Shown here: piece by piece, positions 48,813-59,035 of the stretch
Numbering within the stretch: position 1 is the first letter of the stretch
Layout of the letters: every line of letters starts with the position of its first letter
NCBI RefSeq assembly: GCF_004116465.1
Contig: NZ_PDJV01000001.1
Coordinates: 248,001 to 312,000 of the forward strand
Source: Arcobacter sp. F2176
GTDB taxonomy: Bacteria > Campylobacterota > Campylobacteria > Campylobacterales > Arcobacteraceae
Length of the DNA stretch: 64,000 nucleotides
Reading direction: 5' to 3'
Program-made: the position numbers and the translations under genes
Notes under the pieces: model-generated
Seen by the model: the letters and a program-made list of their open reading frames with translations, nothing else
Databases searched by the model: none
Told to the model about the DNA's origin: nothing

Positions 48813-48838
48813 AATAAGAAGGAAAATTCCTTCTTATT
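48813..48838 (-). terminator. Hairpin overlapping the putA stop
   Basis: 11-bp perfect stem (48813-48823 with 48828-48838); the proximal arm includes the putA TAA. A moderately T-rich stretch follows on the minus strand. Confidence 0.6.
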
Positions 48839-51800
48839 TTAAACCTCTTGCACCAATATTTCCATATCTATGGAAAGAGTGAGAGATTGATTGCTCAATG
48901 AAATAGTTAAGAAGTTCTAGTCTTCCTTCCATCATTGGAGCTTGTCTTACTATATATGTAAGAGATTTTGATGCAGCTTCAAAAATTGAAGAAGGAACTT
49001 TACTAATATTTGAGTAAATAACTCTTTGATAATCTTTTATTGTATTTGCAAAAGATTTATCATCTTCTTCAACAACTTTATTTGTTCCTAATAGAATAGC
49101 TGATTTAGCTAAGAAGTCTTTAATAGTATCATTACCATTAATTGAAACAGTAAAGCTTACATTTGAAATTCTTGCTGCTAAGATTCTAGATACTACTTCA
49201 AAAATTGTATCATCAGAGCTTACTCTAATTACAACTTTATCCAATGGTAAATATCTAAAGTGATTATCTTCACCTCTTACTTCACAATAATCTTTTGCTT
49301 TGCTAAATTCATTTTCATAATTTTCATAATATGATTGAACAGCAACTGCTAATTTTTCGAACTCTTCTTTATTTTCACCTTTTGATTTACAAGAATCAAT
49401 AAATTTAACTAAATCAGAGTTATATTTTTTACTAACAGTTGGATTTGATTTTTCAGTAAAATTAACAAATTGAGTAACATAGTTGAAAATACCAACTTTT
49501 CTTCCTGCTCCAATTGCAGATTTACCCATACCACCAAATGGTTGTCGCAGAACAATCGCACCAGTTGTTCCTCTATTTACATAAAGGTTACCAGCTTTAA
49601 GATTTGCTTTCCAATAAGAAACTTCTCTTTCATCAAGAGATTCAATACCAGAAGTCAATCCATAACCTGTATCATTTACAATTTTTACAGCATGTGCTAA
49701 ATCTTTTGCTTTAACAACGGCAAGAACTGGTCCAAATAACTCATTCATATGAATAAAGTTACCCTCCTCTACGCCCCATTTAATTGCTGGTTTTAACATA
49801 TACTCATTACCTTCTGCATATTCAGGAGCAACTAACCACTCTTCTTTACCTTCTAATTCACTAATTGCTTTTTTAAGATTTCCAGATACAGGATTTGCTA
49901 AAGTTCCAATTCTATTTTTTAAATCCCAAACAGAACCTACACTCATAGATTTAGCTGTATCAATTAATGCTTTTTTGAAACCTTCATCATTATAAACTTC
50001 TTCTTCTAATACTAAAAGTGATGTTGCAGAACATTTTTGACCTGAGTTTGCAAATGCACTTTGACAAACATTTTTAACAGCTTGTTCTCTATCAGCCATA
50101 TTTGTTACAATTGTTGCATCTTTACCACCAGTTTCAGCAGTCAATAATAAATCAGGTCTAGTTTTTAACATAGCAGCAGCTGTATCTTCACCACCTGTTA
50201 AAATAACAAAATCAACATCTTTATTAGCAATTAAATGCTCACCTGCAAGTGCACCTGGACAAGGAACAAATTGAAGAACATTTTTAGAAATACCAGCATC
50301 CCAAAAACATTTACACATCTCATATGCTGTTAATGCTGCAGCTGATGCTGGTTTAATAATAACTGTATTTCCGGCAGCTAAAGATGAAGCAACTCCACCT
50401 AAAGGAATAGCAACTGGGAAATTCCATGGTGGAATTACAACCCCTACACCTTTTCCTGAAAACTCTAAGTTTTGATATTTTTCAAAATAATGTGTACTAT
50501 ATGGATAAAATTCTAAGAAATCAACCGCTTCAGAAACTTCAACATCTGTTTCAGTAAATACTTTACCAACTTCAGCAGCAGCAACACCGATTAAATCATC
50601 TCTTCTCTCTCTCACCTTTATAGCTACAAGTTTAAGTGCAGCATGTCTTTGTTCATGAGTTAAACTTCTCCAACCATCTTTGTCAGCCTTTGCAACTTCT
50701 ACAGCTTTTTTAAGATCATCAGCATTTGCATTTGCAAATTTACCTGCTAAAACACCATCTTTAATTTGAGATTTATCAATTGCATCTACTACTTTTCTAT
50801 CTTCTGAAATATCAACTCCCCCAACAACTATTGGAGTAATTTTGTGTTCTGTATCTTTAGAAAATTGCCATTTTTTAATAATATTTCTAGCCCACTCTTG
50901 ATTAGCTGCTAATACGAAATCTGTATCAGCTTCAGCATGATACTCTTTTGTATCATATGATGAGAGTGAAAAATCATCCCATTTTTCTGTAAGTCTATTT
51001 TGTGTTCTATGAGCACCTACAAATGAAGTTTTTTCATTTTCAAAAGATTTTAAAAATAATTCTTTTTGCATATTCCAATCTTTTGAACCAACTGTAAGAC
51101 CAAAAGAGTATCTAATAAAGTTATTTGGACCTGTATTTTCATCAAGTCTTCTCACTAAATATGCAATTGCATTTGTGAATTGTTCTTTTGCAGCAGTTGG
51201 TGCATATAAAATAACAGATTTAGAAATTTCTCTAATTGCTAATCTTGCAGCTTCACTCATACCTTCTAACATCTCTAAAGTATGATATTCGCTTGTTTTA
51301 TTTTCTTGAGCTAATGTTGTAGCAAATGCTAATTCAAATAAGTTATGAGAAGCAGTTCCTATATGCATAAATGGAGCATTATCTGGTTGTAATGCAAATC
51401 TAGCCATTCTTTTATAATTTGAATCTGTATCACTTTTATCTGTATATGTAACCATTTCCCAATGTTTTTGGCTAGCTTCAGTTTCTTCCATCTCCATATT
51501 AGCACCTTTTACAAGTCTAAACTTCATAGGAGATCCACCATTTTCTACTCTTTTTTTAGCCCAAGCTAATAAGTCTTTTTGTACCAAAAATGAATCAGGA
51601 ATATATGCTTGTAATACAATACCAGCATAAAAATCTTTAAACTGTGGTTTATCCAATGTTCTTTTGAATACTTCAACTGTAATAGCTAAATCCCTATACT
51701 CTTCCATATCAAGATTTATAAATTTATTTGATTTAGTTCCATCTGGAGCTATGTAAGGATACTTAATTGCTTGTTCATATATTTTAGTTAATTTTTCAAC

Positions 51801-52400
51801 AAGCACTTCAACTGTGTGCTCAAAATTCAAAGGACTGATTTGAGAATAAATAGTTGATATCTTAATAGAAATATAGTCAATATTTGGATTAGATAAAGCT
51901 TTTAAATATTTTTCCATTCTCTCACTTGCTTCTTCTTCACCAAGAACAACTTCACCAATAAGGTTAATATTGACTCTAGTACCCTCTTCTTTTCTCATAA
52001 TTAAGTGTTTATTAAAAGGCTCTTCTTCTCCTTTAATAACTACTGTCTTAGTATCTTCTCTTATTTGATTTACAAACATAGGAACAGATAAGTTTGGTAA
52101 AAATTTTCCAAAGTTTTGGAATAACCATAAAAGTGTCTTATCTTTTGTTGTAAAAAAGTGAGCCATCCCATGCTTTTCTAATAAGAAAATAATTTGATCA
52201 GCGACTCTTGCATTTGAATCACATCTAAAACATTGATCCATTAATTCTATTAAAAGAGCTTTATCTTTTGGATGATCAAGCATTTTATTCATTTTTACAT
52301 AAAATTCTCTATCCCAATCGCTAACAAGTTCTGTTGCTCTATTTTGCCATTTTTCAGCTAGTTTAACTGCTGATTCTACAATTTCTGTTTCATTTTTCAT
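48834..52400 (-). CDS. putA: PutA, proline dehydrogenase / P5C dehydrogenase
   Basis: A 1,188-residue bifunctional enzyme turning proline into glutamate. The PRODH barrel is at about 100-450 ('FRLVKGANMEMEE', 'GTASHNLFELAFA', 'RRLDENTGPNNFI'); the aldehyde dehydrogenase part is at about 520-1010 with 'VIPPWNFPVAIPLGGVA' and the catalytic Cys in 'NSGQKCSATS'. The last 170 residues look like the truncated second ALDH-like domain of type B PutA. No DNA-binding RHH domain at the N terminus, so it is not a self-repressor. Transport of proline is not encoded next to it. Confidence 0.95.
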   Translation of the reverse strand: MKNETEIVESAVKLAEKWQNRATELVSDWDREFYVKMNKMLDHPKDKALLIELMDQCFRCDSNARVADQIIFLLEKHGMAHFFTTKDKTLLWLFQNFGKFLPNLSVPMFVNQIREDTKTVVIKGEEEPFNKHLIMRKEEGTRVNINLIGEVVLGEEEASERMEKYLKALSNPNIDYISIKISTIYSQISPLNFEHTVEVLVEKLTKIYEQAIKYPYIAPDGTKSNKFINLDMEEYRDLAITVEVFKRTLDKPQFKDFYAGIVLQAYIPDSFLVQKDLLAWAKKRVENGGSPMKFRLVKGANMEMEETEASQKHWEMVTYTDKSDTDSNYKRMARFALQPDNAPFMHIGTASHNLFELAFATTLAQENKTSEYHTLEMLEGMSEAARLAIREISKSVILYAPTAAKEQFTNAIAYLVRRLDENTGPNNFIRYSFGLTVGSKDWNMQKELFLKSFENEKTSFVGAHRTQNRLTEKWDDFSLSSYDTKEYHAEADTDFVLAANQEWARNIIKKWQFSKDTEHKITPIVVGGVDISEDRKVVDAIDKSQIKDGVLAGKFANANADDLKKAVEVAKADKDGWRSLTHEQRHAALKLVAIKVRERRDDLIGVAAAEVGKVFTETDVEVSEAVDFLEFYPYSTHYFEKYQNLEFSGKGVGVVIPPWNFPVAIPLGGVASSLAAGNTVIIKPASAAALTAYEMCKCFWDAGISKNVLQFVPCPGALAGEHLIANKDVDFVILTGGEDTAAAMLKTRPDLLLTAETGGKDATIVTNMADREQAVKNVCQSAFANSGQKCSATSLLVLEEEVYNDEGFKKALIDTAKSMSVGSVWDLKNRIGTLANPVSGNLKKAISELEGKEEWLVAPEYAEGNEYMLKPAIKWGVEEGNFIHMNELFGPVLAVVKAKDLAHAVKIVNDTGYGLTSGIESLDEREVSYWKANLKAGNLYVNRGTTGAIVLRQPFGGMGKSAIGAGRKVGIFNYVTQFVNFTEKSNPTVSKKYNSDLVKFIDSCKSKGENKEEFEKLAVAVQSYYENYENEFSKAKDYCEVRGEDNHFRYLPLDKVVIRVSSDDTIFEVVSRILAARISNVSFTVSINGNDTIKDFLAKSAILLGTNKVVEEDDKSFANTIKDYQRVIYSNISKVPSSIFEAASKSLTYIVRQAPMMEGRLELLNYFIEQSISHSFHRYGNIGARGLK

Positions 52401-52440
52401 TTATTGTCCTTAAAATTTATTGTTTTTTAATTAATTTTGA

Positions 52441-52476
52441 GTAGTTTTGAGCACATTATTAATTGTGCTCAACTAC
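52441..52476 (-). terminator. Hairpin terminator after the liv operon
   Basis: A 13-15 base stem (52441-52455 with 52464-52476, a two-base T bulge on one side, loop 8). Lies 80 bases after livF and before putA, in the only sizeable gap of this region; nothing coding was seen in the rest of the gap. Confidence 0.65.
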
Positions 52477-52558
52477 TAACTTGCTACTTTAATTAAGGAT
52501 TCCCTGGCCTTTATGTAAATCTTGTACTTTTGATTGCAATCTACGTTTATGTCGCATA

Positions 52559-53281
52559 TTAATGCTTTTTACCCAAGTAAGCTTCTTGTATAGTCTTAGA
52601 ATTTAATAGTTCTTCCGCTGTACCTTCGTGTGTGATTTTCCCAACTTCTAGTACATATGCTCTATCTGCTAATTTAAGAGCTGCTTTTGCATTTTGTTCA
52701 ACTAATAAAACTGTAACACCATTTAAGGCAATCTCTTTTATAGCTTTAAAAATCGCTTTAATTAAAATTGGTGCTAAACCTAATGAAGGTTCATCCAAAA
52801 TTAAAAGTTTGGGTTTACTCATAATTGCTCTACCAATTGCAAGCATCTGTTGCTCGCCACCACTTAAAGTTCCAGCAAGCTGTTTTTTTCTTTCTTTAAG
52901 TCTTGGTAAAATATCATAAATCCAATCCAAAGTCTCTTTATCATGTCCTTTTAATGTATATGCACCCATCATAAGATTTTCTTCAACAGTTAATGTTCCA
53001 AAAACTCTTCTTCCTTCTGGTGAGTGAGACATACCAAGTGATACAATATCATGTGCTTCACATTTTGTAATATCATTTTTATCAAAAATAATATTCCCTG
53101 ATTTTGGTTTCAAAAGTCCAGAAATTGTTCTTAAAGTTGTAGTTTTACCAGCACCATTAGCACCAAGAATTGTTACAACTTCCCCTTTTAATACTTTTAA
53201 ATCTATACCTTTAATAGCAGATATTGCTCCATATGACACATGAAGATCTCTAACTTCTAGTAATATTTCATTATTTACCAT
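52559..53281 (-). CDS. livF: LivF, branched-chain amino acid ABC ATPase
   Basis: A 240-residue ABC ATPase: Walker A 'GANGAGKTTTLRTI', signature 'LSGGEQQMLAIGRA', Walker B 'LLILDEPSLGLAP', typical LivF length and 'SPEGRRVFGTLTVEENL'. Powers uptake through LivHM. Its start meets the livG stop, sharing one base. Confidence 0.96.
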   Translation of the reverse strand: MVNNEILLEVRDLHVSYGAISAIKGIDLKVLKGEVVTILGANGAGKTTTLRTISGLLKPKSGNIIFDKNDITKCEAHDIVSLGMSHSPEGRRVFGTLTVEENLMMGAYTLKGHDKETLDWIYDILPRLKERKKQLAGTLSGGEQQMLAIGRAIMSKPKLLILDEPSLGLAPILIKAIFKAIKEIALNGVTVLLVEQNAKAALKLADRAYVLEVGKITHEGTAEELLNSKTIQEAYLGKKH

Positions 53282-54060
53282 TATTCATCCTCCTCATCAT
53301 CATCTGTTCCAATATAAGCTTCAATAACTTTTGGATCATCTTGTACGAATGATGGAAGACCTTGTGAAATCTCTTTTCCAAAGTTGATAACAGTGATATA
53401 ATCAGTTAACTTCATAACCATATCCATATCATGTTCAATCATCATAATTCCAAGACCCATTTCTTTTATTTTCAAAATTATGTTAGTAAGTTCTATGGTC
53501 TCATTTTCATTAAGTCCGGCTGCTGGTTCATCTAAGATTAAAAGCTCAGGTTCAGCCGCAAGTGCTCTTGCCATTTCAATTTTTCTTTGATTTCCATAAG
53601 ATAAATCTCCCGCAGGAGTTTTAGCATATTTTGTTAAACCAAAAAAGTCCATAAGTTCTCCAACTTTTTCCCATTGTTTCTTTTCATCTGTTCGATAAAA
53701 AGGTGTATGAACAATAGCGTGATACCATTTTTGTTTTGATTTTGTATGACATCCCGCAATAATATTCTCTGCAACACTCATCTCTTTAAAAAGTCTAATA
53801 TTTTGGAATGTTCTTAAAACTCCCCTTTGGGCAATTTTATGTGGCTCCATTCCTGTAATATTCTCACCTTTATATTTTATACTTCCTTGCTCAGGAGTAT
53901 AGATACCTGTTACACAGTTAAAAAGTGTAGTTTTACCAGCACCATTAGGACCAATAATTCCATATATTTGACCAGGCTTTACTTTAATAGTTAAATCATC
54001 AATTGCAACTAATCCATGGAAAAACTTTGAAACATTTTCTATTTCTAATACATATTTCAT
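53281..54060 (-). CDS. livG: LivG, branched-chain amino acid ABC ATPase
   Basis: A 259-residue ABC ATPase with 'GPNGAGKTTLFNCV' (Walker A), 'LSYGNQRKIEMARALA' (signature) and 'LLILDEPAAGLNE' (Walker B), the LivG variant with Asn/Glu. Paired with LivF. The tail is acidic ('DDDEEDE'). Joined end to end with livM and livF by one-base overlaps. Confidence 0.96.
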   Translation of the reverse strand: MKYVLEIENVSKFFHGLVAIDDLTIKVKPGQIYGIIGPNGAGKTTLFNCVTGIYTPEQGSIKYKGENITGMEPHKIAQRGVLRTFQNIRLFKEMSVAENIIAGCHTKSKQKWYHAIVHTPFYRTDEKKQWEKVGELMDFFGLTKYAKTPAGDLSYGNQRKIEMARALAAEPELLILDEPAAGLNENETIELTNIILKIKEMGLGIMMIEHDMDMVMKLTDYITVINFGKEISQGLPSFVQDDPKVIEAYIGTDDDEEDE

Positions 54061-55016
54061 TATTTTGCCTCCCTAGCTTTCTTTTTAAGAAAATTTGGAA
54101 TATTTCCAAAAGTTGCAGGCCATACACCATTTGGTCTTAAAATCATAGTAAGAACCATAGCGGCACCAAAAATTAAGTATCTTGATTCTTTAAACTCTGT
54201 AAATAGTTCAGGTAATACAAACATAACAAATGTTCCAATAATAATTCCAGGAAGTGAAGCAGATCCACCAACTAAAACGATTGCAAAGAACATAACTGAT
54301 TGCATAAAGTTAAATGATTCAGGACTTACAGCTGAATACTGAATAGCAAAAACACATCCAGCAGCACCTGCAATAGCAGCACCTAAAGCAAAAGCAAAAA
54401 GTTTATAATATGAGATATTTATTCCCATAGATTTTGCTGCAATTTCATTTTTGTTTATATAATATAAAGCTCTTCCATATCTTGATGTATCTAGATTTCT
54501 AATTATTAATAAAGTAACAATTAATAAAGCAAAGGCGATATAATAAACACCCGTATCACTAGTTATTTCATATCCAAAAACCCTAAAGAAATCAATTCCA
54601 AAAATACCATTAGGACCACCAGTTAACCCAAATACATCATTAGATAATACTTGTTCAAATATGATATTAAATCCAATAGTTGCAACAAGTAAATAATCAC
54701 CTCTTAAATGGATAATTGGACCAGCAAGTAAAACTGAAAAAACAACTGGAACTAAAATTGCAAAAGGAATAGTTTCAATAATTTCAAGCCCAAAATGTAC
54801 ATTTAAAATAGCTGTTGTATATGCACCCATCCCAAAGAAAATTGCATGTCCCATATTAAATACACCAGCACGACCAAGAATAATATCTTGAGAGAAGGCA
54901 ACAACGGCAAATACTAAAAATGTAATACCAATACTTAACCAAGCAGAATCAACTAAAAATGGGAAAACTGCCATAACTACTAAAAATAAAGTAGCAATAA
55001 TTGTAGTTCTATTCAT
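54060..55016 (-). CDS. livM: LivM, branched-chain amino acid permease
   Basis: A 318-residue permease with about ten membrane segments and the family motif 'AAAIAGAAGCVFA' near residue 210 and 'GGSASLPGIIIGT'. One-base overlaps with livH and livG. Confidence 0.95.
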   Translation of the reverse strand: MNRTTIIATLFLVVMAVFPFLVDSAWLSIGITFLVFAVVAFSQDIILGRAGVFNMGHAIFFGMGAYTTAILNVHFGLEIIETIPFAILVPVVFSVLLAGPIIHLRGDYLLVATIGFNIIFEQVLSNDVFGLTGGPNGIFGIDFFRVFGYEITSDTGVYYIAFALLIVTLLIIRNLDTSRYGRALYYINKNEIAAKSMGINISYYKLFAFALGAAIAGAAGCVFAIQYSAVSPESFNFMQSVMFFAIVLVGGSASLPGIIIGTFVMFVLPELFTEFKESRYLIFGAAMVLTMILRPNGVWPATFGNIPNFLKKKAREAK

Positions 55017-55918
55017 TATACTTTCTCCGCTGTGTTTTCACCAAGAAGTCCAGTTGGTTTTACAATTAAAATTATAATTAATAAAATAAATGTAAATGTC
55101 TCTGCCCATTCTGTTGAAATATATCCTGATATTAGTGCATTAAATAATCCAAGTAATAATCCACCAAGCATAGCTCCTGGAATACTCCCAATACCACCAA
55201 TAATTGCTGCAATAAATGCATTTAAACCATAAAGCCATCCCATGTCAAATGTCAAACCTCTATAGTAAAGCCCAATAAATAAACCACCAATAGCACCTAA
55301 CATAGACCCTATTATAAAAATAGTCATAATTACTCTATTAACATTGATACCCATAAGCTTTGCAGCATCTTGATCTATAGCAGTTGCTCTAATGGCTGTT
55401 CCCATTTTTGTTTTATTGATGAAAAGATAAAGTGCAACCATTAACACACCTGATAATGCTAAGATTACCAATTGAGTAAATGAAATTATAACTCCACCAA
55501 AATTCCATGAAGTAGCAGGGAATACATTTGCTGGGAATATTTCCATATTTGGTCCCCAAATTAACATTATTGCATTTTGTATTACAAGTGATGCACCAAG
55601 AGCAGAAACAACTGCACTTAATCTTGGTGCCGTTCTTAAAGGTCTATAGGCTAGACGCTCAAGAAGAACACCTACAAAAGCCACAACGATTGCTGTTAAA
55701 GTAAATACTATAACAATATTCACTAACGTCAATGCATTTGAACCATAAAACTGTGTAAACAAAGTAAGTCCTACATAAGCAGAAAAGGCAACAAGGTCAC
55801 CGTGTGCGAAGTTGATTAACTTCATCACACCGTAAACCATTGTATAACCTAATGCTACTAATGCATACAGACTTCCTACTGTTAAACCATTAATTAACTG
55901 TTGAAGAAGAGTATCCAT
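55016..55918 (-). CDS. livH: LivH, branched-chain amino acid permease
   Basis: A 300-residue permease: 'LINGLTVGSLYALVALGYTM' is the typical start, and 'AIIGGIGSIPGAMLGGLLLG' the EAA-like loop that contacts the ATPases. Follows livK by 18 bases. Confidence 0.95.
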   Translation of the reverse strand: MDTLLQQLINGLTVGSLYALVALGYTMVYGVMKLINFAHGDLVAFSAYVGLTLFTQFYGSNALTLVNIVIVFTLTAIVVAFVGVLLERLAYRPLRTAPRLSAVVSALGASLVIQNAIMLIWGPNMEIFPANVFPATSWNFGGVIISFTQLVILALSGVLMVALYLFINKTKMGTAIRATAIDQDAAKLMGINVNRVIMTIFIIGSMLGAIGGLFIGLYYRGLTFDMGWLYGLNAFIAAIIGGIGSIPGAMLGGLLLGLFNALISGYISTEWAETFTFILLIIILIVKPTGLLGENTAEKV

Positions 55919-55936: not shown

Positions 55937-57058
55937 TTATTCAGTAACAACTTGTTTTGTACCATCATTTTTCATTTTGTAAACAACAAATTTAGCACCA
56001 ACTCTCTCACCATCTTCTCTAATATTAAATGGTCCAGTAATTCCTGGAAAATCTTTCATAGATCTAATGTATTCAGCAATTTTTTTGGTGTCAAAAGATT
56101 TTGTTTTTTCAACACCTTCAATAACTGCTCTTAAACCATCTGCATTAGTTACTGGCCAAATTGATGGAGGATCCATTTTAAATCTAGCTTTGTAAGCTGC
56201 AAGATATTTTTTAGCTTCAGGGTATGGTAAAATTTCAGGTGTGGGGAAGTTAATTAAAACTGTTCCAGCAGCTGCTTTACCTGCTAATTTATAGAAATCA
56301 GGGTTATCATTTGAATCACCACCAACAAAATCTGCATCTATTTGTAATTGTTTTTGTTGAGCTCTTAATAATCCACCATCAGTATAATAACCTGAATAAT
56401 AAATTACATCTGGGTTCATTTCTTTTATTTTTGTTAAGATTGCTGAAAAGTTTTGAGTTCCAGATTTAATTTTCCCTCTATAAATAACATTTCCACCAAT
56501 AGCTTTGATTGAAGCTTCAGTTGCGTCACCAAGTCCTTCTGAGTAAGAAGAATAATCAGATAAAACTACAATTTTTTTGTATTTTTTAGTTTTCACCATA
56601 TACTCTGCTGTAAAATCACTTTGAGAAGAGTTTGGAAAAGAGTTTCTAAAGAAAGTCCAATATTTTTTAGCAATTAAAGAATCACTTGTACCATCAGAAG
56701 TTTGTAAAACATTTTTTCTATAATATGTAGTTTGAGCAGCTTCTGTAGCACCTGAAGTATAAGAACCAATTACAGCAATAACACCTGCATTAGTTAATTT
56801 TTTAGCACAAACAGCAGCTTTTTGAGCTTTTGCTTCATCATCACAAGTAATAACTTCGATTTGTTTACCTAAAAGCCCACCTTCTGCATTTTTTTCATCT
56901 GCAATAAGTCTTACAAAGTTTTCTATACTTTGACCTTCATTAGCATATTGTCCTGTAATTGGCGCTTGTACACCAATCTTAACTGTATCAGCTGCAAACA
57001 ATAGTGTTGAAACAGCAGCACTAAGTGCTAATGCACTAGCAATTTTTGTTAATTTCAT
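55937..57058 (-). CDS. livK: LivK-type periplasmic amino acid-binding protein
   Basis: A 373-residue substrate-binding protein with signal peptide (cleavage after 'LLFA'), then 'VKIGVQAPITGQYANEGQSI' and 'VIAVIGSYTSGATEAA', the type I periplasmic fold. Cys pair in 'ITCDDEAKAQKAAVCAKKL' as in LivJ/K. First gene of livKHMGF; a gap of 24 bases separates it from the upstream unknown gene, so the operon could be read from the RHH gene promoter as well. Confidence 0.93.
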   Translation of the reverse strand: MKLTKIASALALSAAVSTLLFAADTVKIGVQAPITGQYANEGQSIENFVRLIADEKNAEGGLLGKQIEVITCDDEAKAQKAAVCAKKLTNAGVIAVIGSYTSGATEAAQTTYYRKNVLQTSDGTSDSLIAKKYWTFFRNSFPNSSQSDFTAEYMVKTKKYKKIVVLSDYSSYSEGLGDATEASIKAIGGNVIYRGKIKSGTQNFSAILTKIKEMNPDVIYYSGYYTDGGLLRAQQKQLQIDADFVGGDSNDNPDFYKLAGKAAAGTVLINFPTPEILPYPEAKKYLAAYKARFKMDPPSIWPVTNADGLRAVIEGVEKTKSFDTKKIAEYIRSMKDFPGITGPFNIREDGERVGAKFVVYKMKNDGTKQVVTE

Positions 57059-57082: not shown

Positions 57083-57745
57083 CTATTTTAAAGCAGGTTC
57101 AATTACATAGCAACCCACACACCATTCTCCGATGTTTTGAACAACGTGTATCTCTCCTCCTTTAAAATAAGATTTTAAATTATTATAATCACTTACTATA
57201 TTATCAAATGTTTCAATGATTTCATCAAGTCTTTTTTGTGTCTTTTTTCTTGCACTATTTGAAATATCTAAATAAAATGCAAAAAGGCCATAATCTAAAG
57301 TTGAGTCCTCTATTTTATCTCTATCTAACATTTTGCACATTTTTTCAATTTCACTTTTATACTCTTCTTGAACATTTCGTACACCATTTTTTATACTCAT
57401 AATTACTCTTGATATAGAATCATTATCTGATTTATGTTCAAATCTTTCATCAAGTGTTAAAGATAAAATATCTTGTGTTAAATATTTTTCTTTCATAAAG
57501 CTTCTAAAATCATCTCTTTTTGGTAATGAACACCTTAATATATCTGCAACTGTTGCATCTATATAAATTTCTGGTGCATTTTCTAATTTAGCAATTTCTT
57601 GAGAAACATGAATTGATAAAAACTTTGGTGGTGCATAAGATAAATATAACTCATCTGCTGTCCAAAATGAATAGTTCTTTTTAGCAATGTAAATACCACT
57701 TATAACAGCATTTATAACATCAACTTGTAAAGGAAAATTAGTCAT
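57083..57745 (-). CDS. Unknown protein paired with an RHH regulator
   Basis: A 220-residue protein, no known family recognised. The first half has mixed helices and strands ('YSFWTADELYLSYAPPKFLS', 'PEIYIDATVADILRC'), the second half is a long charged helix ('SEIEKMCKMLDRDKIED', 'RKKTQKRLDEIIETFDNI') and the end has a Cys pair in 'WCVGCYVIEPALK'. It overlaps the RHH gene by 8 bases, so the two proteins are made together and may act as partners, for example antitoxin/toxin or corepressor. It ends 24 bases before livK. Confidence 0.6.
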   Translation of the reverse strand: MTNFPLQVDVINAVISGIYIAKKNYSFWTADELYLSYAPPKFLSIHVSQEIAKLENAPEIYIDATVADILRCSLPKRDDFRSFMKEKYLTQDILSLTLDERFEHKSDNDSISRVIMSIKNGVRNVQEEYKSEIEKMCKMLDRDKIEDSTLDYGLFAFYLDISNSARKKTQKRLDEIIETFDNIVSDYNNLKSYFKGGEIHVVQNIGEWCVGCYVIEPALK

Positions 57746-57977
57746 TTTTTATTCCTACAAAATTTTCATCCACTTCTTCTAAAATACCACTTTCATATAA
57801 AATATCTTCAATAAGTCTGTTTTTTGATATGCTAAGTTGAGTTGATAAAACAACTAAGGCTTGATCCAATTTTTTATCAATCTTAATTGTTAGTTGTGAA
57901 ATCTCTTTTTTTGAGCTATTAGTATGTTTATTTATTACATTCTTTATTATTGTTCTATTGTTTTTTTGCTTAGCCAT
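57738..57977 (-). CDS. Small ribbon-helix-helix DNA-binding protein
   Basis: A 79-residue protein. After a basic N-terminal arm, 'ISQLTIKIDKKLDQALVVLS' gives the strand and first helix and 'LSISKNRLIEDILYESG' the second helix of a ribbon-helix-helix fold (CopG/MetJ/ParD type). The acidic tail could hold the partner protein. A perfect palindrome containing the likely -10 box lies 24 bases upstream, so it probably represses itself and the partner gene. Confidence 0.7.
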   Translation of the reverse strand: MAKQKNNRTIIKNVINKHTNSSKKEISQLTIKIDKKLDQALVVLSTQLSISKNRLIEDILYESGILEEVDENFVGIKND

Positions 57978-58000
57978 CTTTTCTCTTTTTATATTTCTTT

Positions 58001-58027
58001 TTTAGTAGTATAAAAGGTACTACTAAA
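58001..58027 (-). promoter_or_regulatory. Palindromic operator over the -10 box of the RHH gene
   Basis: Two 10-base arms (58001-58010 and 58018-58027) around a 7-base spacer. On the minus strand, TATACT (58012-58007), a good -10 box, sits at the inner edge of one arm. The distance to the start codon of the RHH gene (24 bases) fits. Binding by the RHH protein is inferred. Confidence 0.6.
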
Positions 58028-58153
58028 TTATAGTTATAAATTATTGCATGCGAAAAATTAAATTAAACTTAAGATTTCACTAAAAACTGTATATTTTTTA
58101 TACAATTTTAAATAATAATGAGAATTGCTATGTTAATGCTATTTTAGAGAGAA

Positions 58154-59035
58154 TTATTTGAGTTTTTGTTGAAAAATAAGACCAAAAATTATTAATATTA
58201 ATCCTACTATTGTAGATAACAAAATTGGCTCCCCTAATATAAAGTAAATAAAGATTAAAGACAAAAATGGTGAAATAAAAATTAAATTCGCAATTTTAGA
58301 AGTATTTATAGTACTTTGCATAGCTTTTAACCAAAATAAAAATGTAATTCCCATTTCAAATAGTCCTACATAAATTGCACTTAATAAGCCTGAAATATCA
58401 GGTAATGTTAAAGGTTGAGTATAAATAAAATAAATAATTATCAGTGGAAAAGAAAATAAAAAGTTACAAAATAAACTTACTGTAGAGTCAGATTTAGATT
58501 TTGTATTAAATATCCAATACAAAGACCAAAGAACAGTACTGGCAAGTGCTAGTATCAATCCCTCGATATTTGAGAAATTTAAACTAAAAGGTGCACCTTT
58601 TGTAGCAATTATTAAAACACCAAAATAACAAATTATTCCAGCAATTATGTCATATTTACTTAATTTATGTTTTAAAAAAGGAACTGATAATAAAGATAAC
58701 ATTAAAGCCCATGTATAATTTATAGATTGTGCTTCTTGTGCAGGTAAGAGATCATAAGCTTTAAATAGTACTAAATAATATAAAAAAGGATTAATTGTAC
58801 CTAAAACAACTATTAATAAAGAATTATTTTTTATATGAACAATAACTAAAGGTAATTTTTTTTCAATAACTAATATAACAAAAAGTACAATTAATGATGT
58901 AGTTGATGCATATAACACAAGTGCTTCTGGGGTTAAATAAGATAAGGATACTTTAAATGCTGTTGCAACAGTTGACCATAAAAAAACAGAAATAAGTGCA
59001 TATTTGTATGCTGAAGTTAAATTATTTTTATACAT
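58154..59035 (-). CDS. EamA/DMT-family transporter
   Basis: A 293-residue membrane protein with ten hydrophobic segments in two EamA repeats ('ALISVFLWSTVATAFKVSLS', 'LALASTVLWSLYWIFN'). This family exports metabolites such as amino acids; the substrate cannot be told. Single gene, with the divergent usp gene upstream. Confidence 0.88.
   Translation of the reverse strand: MYKNNLTSAYKYALISVFLWSTVATAFKVSLSYLTPEALVLYASTTSLIVLFVILVIEKKLPLVIVHIKNNSLLIVVLGTINPFLYYLVLFKAYDLLPAQEAQSINYTWALMLSLLSVPFLKHKLSKYDIIAGIICYFGVLIIATKGAPFSLNFSNIEGLILALASTVLWSLYWIFNTKSKSDSTVSLFCNFLFSFPLIIIYFIYTQPLTLPDISGLLSAIYVGLFEMGITFLFWLKAMQSTINTSKIANLIFISPFLSLIFIYFILGEPILLSTIVGLILIIFGLIFQQKLK

Follow-up and report, generated by a model that had tools for sequence, protein, structure and literature searches.

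The trifunctional PutA protein of E. coli and Salmonella is an autogenous RHH repressor of putA-putP (PMC5293562), and other described regulators of PutA include PutR, which is of the Lrp/AsnC type (PMC5293562), and PruR of Pseudomonas (PMC5879082), while the genes of proline and hydroxyproline catabolism are also regulated by HypR, which is of the GntR type (PMC5343134). An RHH protein that acts together with a second protein is known from the RelB/RelE system of E. coli, in which the operator spans positions -10 to +17 and is occupied by two adjacent RHH dimers of RelB, whose hold on this DNA is made more stable by RelE (PMC2812701). A further RHH protein, AmrZ, both activates and represses (PMC3325190). 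For Arcobacter-type Campylobacterota, a literature search brought up no regulator that controls proline catabolism; the Epsilonproteobacteria were passed over in a broad regulon survey because orthologues of its target regulators were lacking there (PMC5343134). Here we describe a two-gene pair from Arcobacter sp. F2176 that, together with its operator, appears to form a previously undescribed unit by which Arcobacter-type bacteria control the uptake and breakdown of proline.

The pair lies in a stretch of 64,000 nucleotides, here called the window, to which all coordinates refer, and is accompanied by the following features:

58040..58045, minus strand: probable -10 box AATAAT (the position of TGTGAAATAATGA in relatives), from column conservation in 53 aligned promoters
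58027..58032, minus strand: alternative -10 box TATAAT, from a consensus scan
58001..58027, unstranded: predicted operator, a 10-7-10 palindrome, from its perfect symmetry and its conservation
57738..57977, minus strand: putative RHH-like DNA-binding protein, open reading frame of 79 amino acids
57083..57745, minus strand: P220, the partner protein, open reading frame of 220 amino acids from a degenerate PD-(D/E)xK-like family
55937..57058, minus strand: livK, periplasmic binding protein (Peripla_BP_6, E=2e-58)
52559..55918, minus strand: open reading frames livH (55016-55918), livM (54060-55016), livG (53281-54060) and livF (52559-53281)
48834..52400, minus strand: putA, 1188 amino acids, proline dehydrogenase plus P5C dehydrogenase (Pfam Pro_dh and Aldedh)

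Both small open reading frames and the palindrome were found where the original prediction, made from the letters alone, had placed them, and the coordinates bear out the predicted overlap of 8 bases between the RHH-like and P220 frames as well as the gap of 24 bases between P220 and livK, which starts at 57058. No terminator-like site was found in this 24-bp gap. The names livH, livM, livG and livF are based on sequence and on gene order, the order being kept in relatives, and we propose that livK is the first structural gene and putA the distal member of one operon in this genome. The gap between livF and putA (52401-52558, minus strand) contains a strong hairpin (AGTAGTTGAGCACA..TGTGCTCAAAACTACT, z-score -2.0, no T run), which may act in the processing or stability of the mRNA and so set the level of putA; no operator copy turned up in this gap. 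Upstream of the pair lies an EamA-family transporter gene (58154-59035, minus strand), which in most relatives also stands upstream and in the orientation of the pair. The PutA protein encoded here matches the NCBIfam PutA models and has only the Pro_dh and Aldedh domains in Pfam; the RHH domain at the PutA N-terminus, the hallmark of trifunctional PutA, is absent. In the alignment with the trifunctional model, residue 138 falls at model position 277, and the N-terminal part of the model is unmatched.

Profile matches and a structure model bear on the nature of the 79-amino-acid protein. It scores 13.2 bits against Pfam RHH_3 (curated cut-off 21.6), its relatives reach at best E=0.0015 with RHH_1 and 0.012 with RHH_3, both under the curated cut-offs, and a PHROG of Arc-like repressors matches it at E=0.0017; a PDB sequence search with the RHH profile returned nothing significant. 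The monomer model has two high-confidence helices, at residues 35-48 and 52-63, after a conserved QLTIKID stretch, and the strand that would precede them in an RHH core of about 45 residues is not formed in this monomer, the RHH fold being one of dimers. From the weak, sub-threshold profile matches and the two helices at the expected place we infer an RHH fold for the protein, which would make it a candidate DNA-binding protein.

The pair is conserved and its distribution links it exclusively to putA. P220 was detected in 43 of 104 Arcobacteraceae genomes, with relatives 42-95% identical (close relatives on named contigs include Arcobacter and Malaciobacter), and the RHH-like gene in exactly the same 43. 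The RHH gene lies just upstream of P220 everywhere except at a P220 paralogue of two genomes, the two reading frames mostly overlap or abut, and P220 nearly always stands between RHH and the structural genes. Every one of the 43 pair-bearing genomes has putA, seven Arcobacteraceae genomes have putA without the pair, and none has the pair without putA (Fisher p 3e-22, with the genomes treated as independent though related). An order-wide sample of Campylobacterales gave the same picture, putA being present in 50/50 P220-bearing genomes (49 strong matches and one fragment), and the order-wide search located the pair in two f9 genomes as well as in a second family (f20), for the most part in the gene order RHH-P220-livKHMGF-putA. 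The liv genes are less constant companions: livK is absent from five of the 43 genomes, in three of which (L060, L061 and L085) the pair is directly before putA, and in two (L067 and L091) before a different amino-acid ABC transporter (SBP_bac_3), putA following further downstream on that contig, to judge from the coordinates. With livK missing from 5/43 and putA present in 43/43, the pair therefore tracks putA more closely than liv. A new two-gene regulator of amino-acid uptake had been one of the two original predictions for this place before the liv genes; that part is supported, narrowed to proline uptake plus PutA, and putA itself had been missed.

Elsewhere the pair has proline racemase-family and GntR genes among its neighbours, and paralogous pairs are found ahead of genes for amidinohydrolase-like proteins, ornithine cyclodeaminase and arginase, which are enzymes of the arginine-to-proline route. 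A P220 paralogue that is 42% identical and has no adjacent RHH gene occurs in two genomes (L062:236-919 and one in L092), where it precedes an amidinohydrolase-like gene and an ornithine cyclodeaminase; P220 may thus have a separable role, a point against the explanation favoured below. Between two congeneric genomes dN/dS is 0.07 for P220 and 0.14 for RHH, and both genes are under purifying selection. A horizontal or mobile origin of the pair was considered and rejected, there being no matches in phages, plasmids or viral contigs.

A conserved operator accompanies the pair. The palindrome at 58001-58027, TTTAGTAGTA-TAAAAGG-TACTACTAAA, is a perfect 10-7-10 palindrome with no second match in the 64-kb window, even with three mismatches (0 expected from shuffles). 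It is real, as predicted, but its bipartite nature had gone unseen: the element conserved in relatives is not the palindrome as such but two spaced 7-bp GTANTAC units, here at 58005-58011 and 58017-58023, 12 bp apart centre to centre and flanked by TTTA..TAAA. Because the centre base of the unit is free, the operator is palindromic in some genomes and direct-repeat-like in others. With at most one mismatch, the two-unit operator is present upstream of RHH at 58/64 loci, in five of the 58 about 200 bp away and adjoining a divergent putA; the simulated background reached two mismatches in 1.3% and one or fewer never. Tandem symmetric subsites at the own promoter, as seen at these 58/64 loci, are a trait of RHH transcription factors. 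The palindrome had also been said to cover the -10 box of the RHH gene, which does not hold: the TATAAT at 58027-58032 abuts the palindrome by one base, and the -10 sequence conserved across relatives (AATAAT, 58040-58045), probably the box in use, lies 12 bases outside it. When 53 RHH promoters are aligned, a TGTGAAATAATGA-like -10 stands about 15 bp ahead of the operator and shows best in Arcobacteraceae, and many putA promoters have a TATAAT-like box directly before the operator. Since the -10 boxes precede it, the operator would coincide with the start site or follow it closely, a position that suits a repressor.

Operators are also placed at further target genes. In 898 kb of locus DNA, a search with at most one mismatch found 75 sites, 54 of them nearest to RHH, 18 to putA and one to livK, with two unassigned. 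Those close to putA were found where putA seems to own a separate promoter, and in f20 the putA operator directly follows a terminator-like GGCGGTTTTTTTT tail. Where livK is split from the pair, an operator precedes livK in 5/5 genomes, with one or two mismatches and in the same promoter context. Genomes without an intact pair, among them G344, which has a remote P220 homologue only, had an operator before putA in 0/20 upstream regions, the best scores being 3-5 mismatches. A strict family-wide scan identified additional intergenic sites before AGCS transporter and SBP_bac_3 transporter genes, before a D-amino-acid dehydrogenase beside a 4-hydroxyproline epimerase, and between gltB (glutamate synthase) and dctP. 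At L167 (G023) and L165 (G018, a genome only 74% complete), where the pair was not found, operator-like sites stand before a D-amino-acid dehydrogenase and in the gltB-dctP interval; in G023 the operator sites are present although neither the pair nor putA was detected, which counts against the explanation that we favour below. Sites within a polynucleotide-phosphorylase-like gene of three genomes (L160, L161 and L169) were set aside as coding-sequence coincidences. The window's own genome showed no excess of sites with up to two mismatches (188, against 271 in the reversed control), and one-mismatch matches elsewhere in it include C7:118675. Given this lack of excess, control in this genome is probably limited to a single operon, and its regulon would probably consist of the operon described here alone.

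The partner protein had been flagged as unknown, and the family search bore this out: P220 stayed below the threshold of every family in Pfam, NCBIfam and PHROGs and gave marginal matches only in PADLOC, and across these four collections no known toxin family was hit that would provide a type II toxin active-site motif. Profile searches did retrieve distant homologues of about 205 amino acids in other Campylobacterales, which hhalign joins to P220 with 99.1% probability (E=1e-18, 182 columns). These homologues carry RxD(I/V)(V/A)..P(R/L)xxIEVK, the PD-(D/E)xK signature, and the R, D, E and K of this motif are invariant in the eight that were aligned; their matches to curated PD-(D/E)xK models are weak (HSDR_N_2, E=5e-4), and the three tested match the phage-defence protein Tin (E 4e-8 to 7e-11). 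Within the P220 family itself, the position of the motif glutamate (117) is S in 41/46 sequences and E in 0/46, while the lysine at 119 is kept in 27/46 and the aspartate at 92 in 25/46. With the glutamate lost and the other two residues partly kept, nuclease activity of P220 is unlikely. The C-terminal cysteine C209 is conserved in only 31/46. A structure model of P220 (pLDDT 94) gave no PDB match below 1e-3 in Foldseek, although weak viral matches turned up, some of them PD-(D/E)XK, and for want of a convincing PDB match we assign the fold from sequence profiles; nothing significant came from sequence searches of the PDB with the P220 and distant-family profiles. By these profiles P220 is a degenerate PD-(D/E)xK-type protein and a distant relative of Tin. 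Among the distant homologues of about 205 amino acids are orphan proteins of several Campylobacterales families with the PD-(D/E)xK motif (L128, L130-L137), which have unrelated neighbours and similarity to Tin of phage P2 and are possible defence genes.

Taken together, we consider it likely that the locus encodes a local, autoregulated regulator of the uptake and catabolism of proline, and probably also of hydroxyproline, in which the RHH protein represses and P220 serves as co-repressor and likely sensor. RHH dimers would bind the two adjacent GTANTAC units where transcription of their own operon begins (here RHH-P220-livKHMGF-putA); in relatives they would also bind at the start of putA, of livK or of other genes of the proline pathway, and once bound they would block initiation. 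P220, its catalytic signature lost, would bind the RHH protein, a probable role as co-repressor or sensor that we draw by analogy with the stabilisation of RelB dimers by RelE (PMC2812701). As the likely sensor, P220 would allow proline or a catabolite, the probable effector, to release repression, and this release would switch on the uptake of proline and its oxidation to glutamate. The Liv transporter would accordingly carry proline, to judge solely from its linkage.

It is rather unlikely that the RHH protein is the regulator by itself, with proline sensed elsewhere or by the RHH protein, and that P220 has another job, for example in controlling the activity of the transporter or of PutA. 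Some RHH proteins can act singly, Arc being an example, and the P220 paralogue that precedes the arginine-to-proline genes in L062 and L092 has no RHH gene beside it, but the adjacency of the two genes is otherwise strict, with frames that mostly overlap or abut, and their identical distribution and the nearly constant place of P220 between RHH and the structural genes argue against this reading. We regard it as quite improbable that the pair activates, rather than represses, the same regulon: some RHH proteins do activate, AmrZ doing both (PMC3325190), but in Arcobacteraceae the operator comes after the conserved -10, and at many putA promoters it directly follows the TATAAT-like box, a place suited to blocking. 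The original prediction had offered as its other choice an inserted toxin-antitoxin-like unit, that is, a type II module of RHH antitoxin and P220 nuclease toxin, autoregulated and standing before liv by chance; gene order, the 8-base overlap, an RHH-like first gene and an operator at the start site do resemble relBE-type modules (PMC2812701), and in distant relatives of P220 the RxD..IEVK nuclease motif is intact and Tin is matched (E 4e-8 to 7e-11), but P220 never occurs without putA (43/43 and 50/50 genomes), the operators stand at putA and livK and not at the pair alone, phage, plasmid or viral-contig copies were not found, the catalytic glutamate is lost from the motif in 46/46 aligned sequences and the pair is under purifying selection, so that we hold this reading to be very improbable.

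For the favoured reading, a repressing RHH protein with P220 as its co-repressor, we put forward tentatively, as possible but doubtful, an origin for the partner: a former defence- or toxin-type, Tin-like PD-(D/E)xK protein may have lost its active site and been recruited together with the RHH protein as a ligand-sensing co-repressor in the control of a core metabolic pathway. If this were true, the result would be a non-enzymatic, split counterpart to the RHH switch of PutA and a sensor protein of a new type. Should P220 be the sensor, a protein of nuclease type would here have become a co-regulator of metabolism, and the coupling which in enterobacteria comes from the fusion of RHH to PutA would have been reached independently. 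A concrete regulator, an operator sequence and a list of targets are now on hand for direct tests.

Compared with described systems, the locus combines familiar parts in an arrangement of its own. Tin of phage P2 (PADLOC PDLC02359) is matched by the orphans L128 and L130-L137, the distant homologues of P220, whereas P220 itself gave no direct match to Tin; these orphans keep RxD..IEVK, stand among unrelated neighbours and have no RHH partner that we could see, in contrast to P220 with its degenerate motif. Like the pair, PutR, PruR and HypR control genes of proline or hydroxyproline catabolism, but they are regulators of other types and each is a single protein, whereas here an RHH-P220 pair of two proteins would do so. 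The locus shares with RelB/RelE an RHH gene in first place, an operator in the start-site region that two adjacent RHH dimers would occupy and, by analogy, a second protein that would act as co-repressor; RelE, however, is an mRNA-cleaving toxin whose target is its own module (PMC2812701), whereas the targets here are metabolic genes and P220, with its degenerate PD-(D/E)xK-like sequence, is unrelated to RelE. Trifunctional PutA and this locus have in common RHH-type DNA binding, putative in our case, and a pathway-tied control of proline uptake and PutA. Trifunctional PutA carries its RHH as an N-terminal domain, is switched by the redox state of the flavin (PMC5293562) and goes with the transporter PutP, whereas here the transporter is of the Liv type, PutA is without an RHH domain, and the RHH is a separate protein of 79 amino acids with a separate partner of 220.
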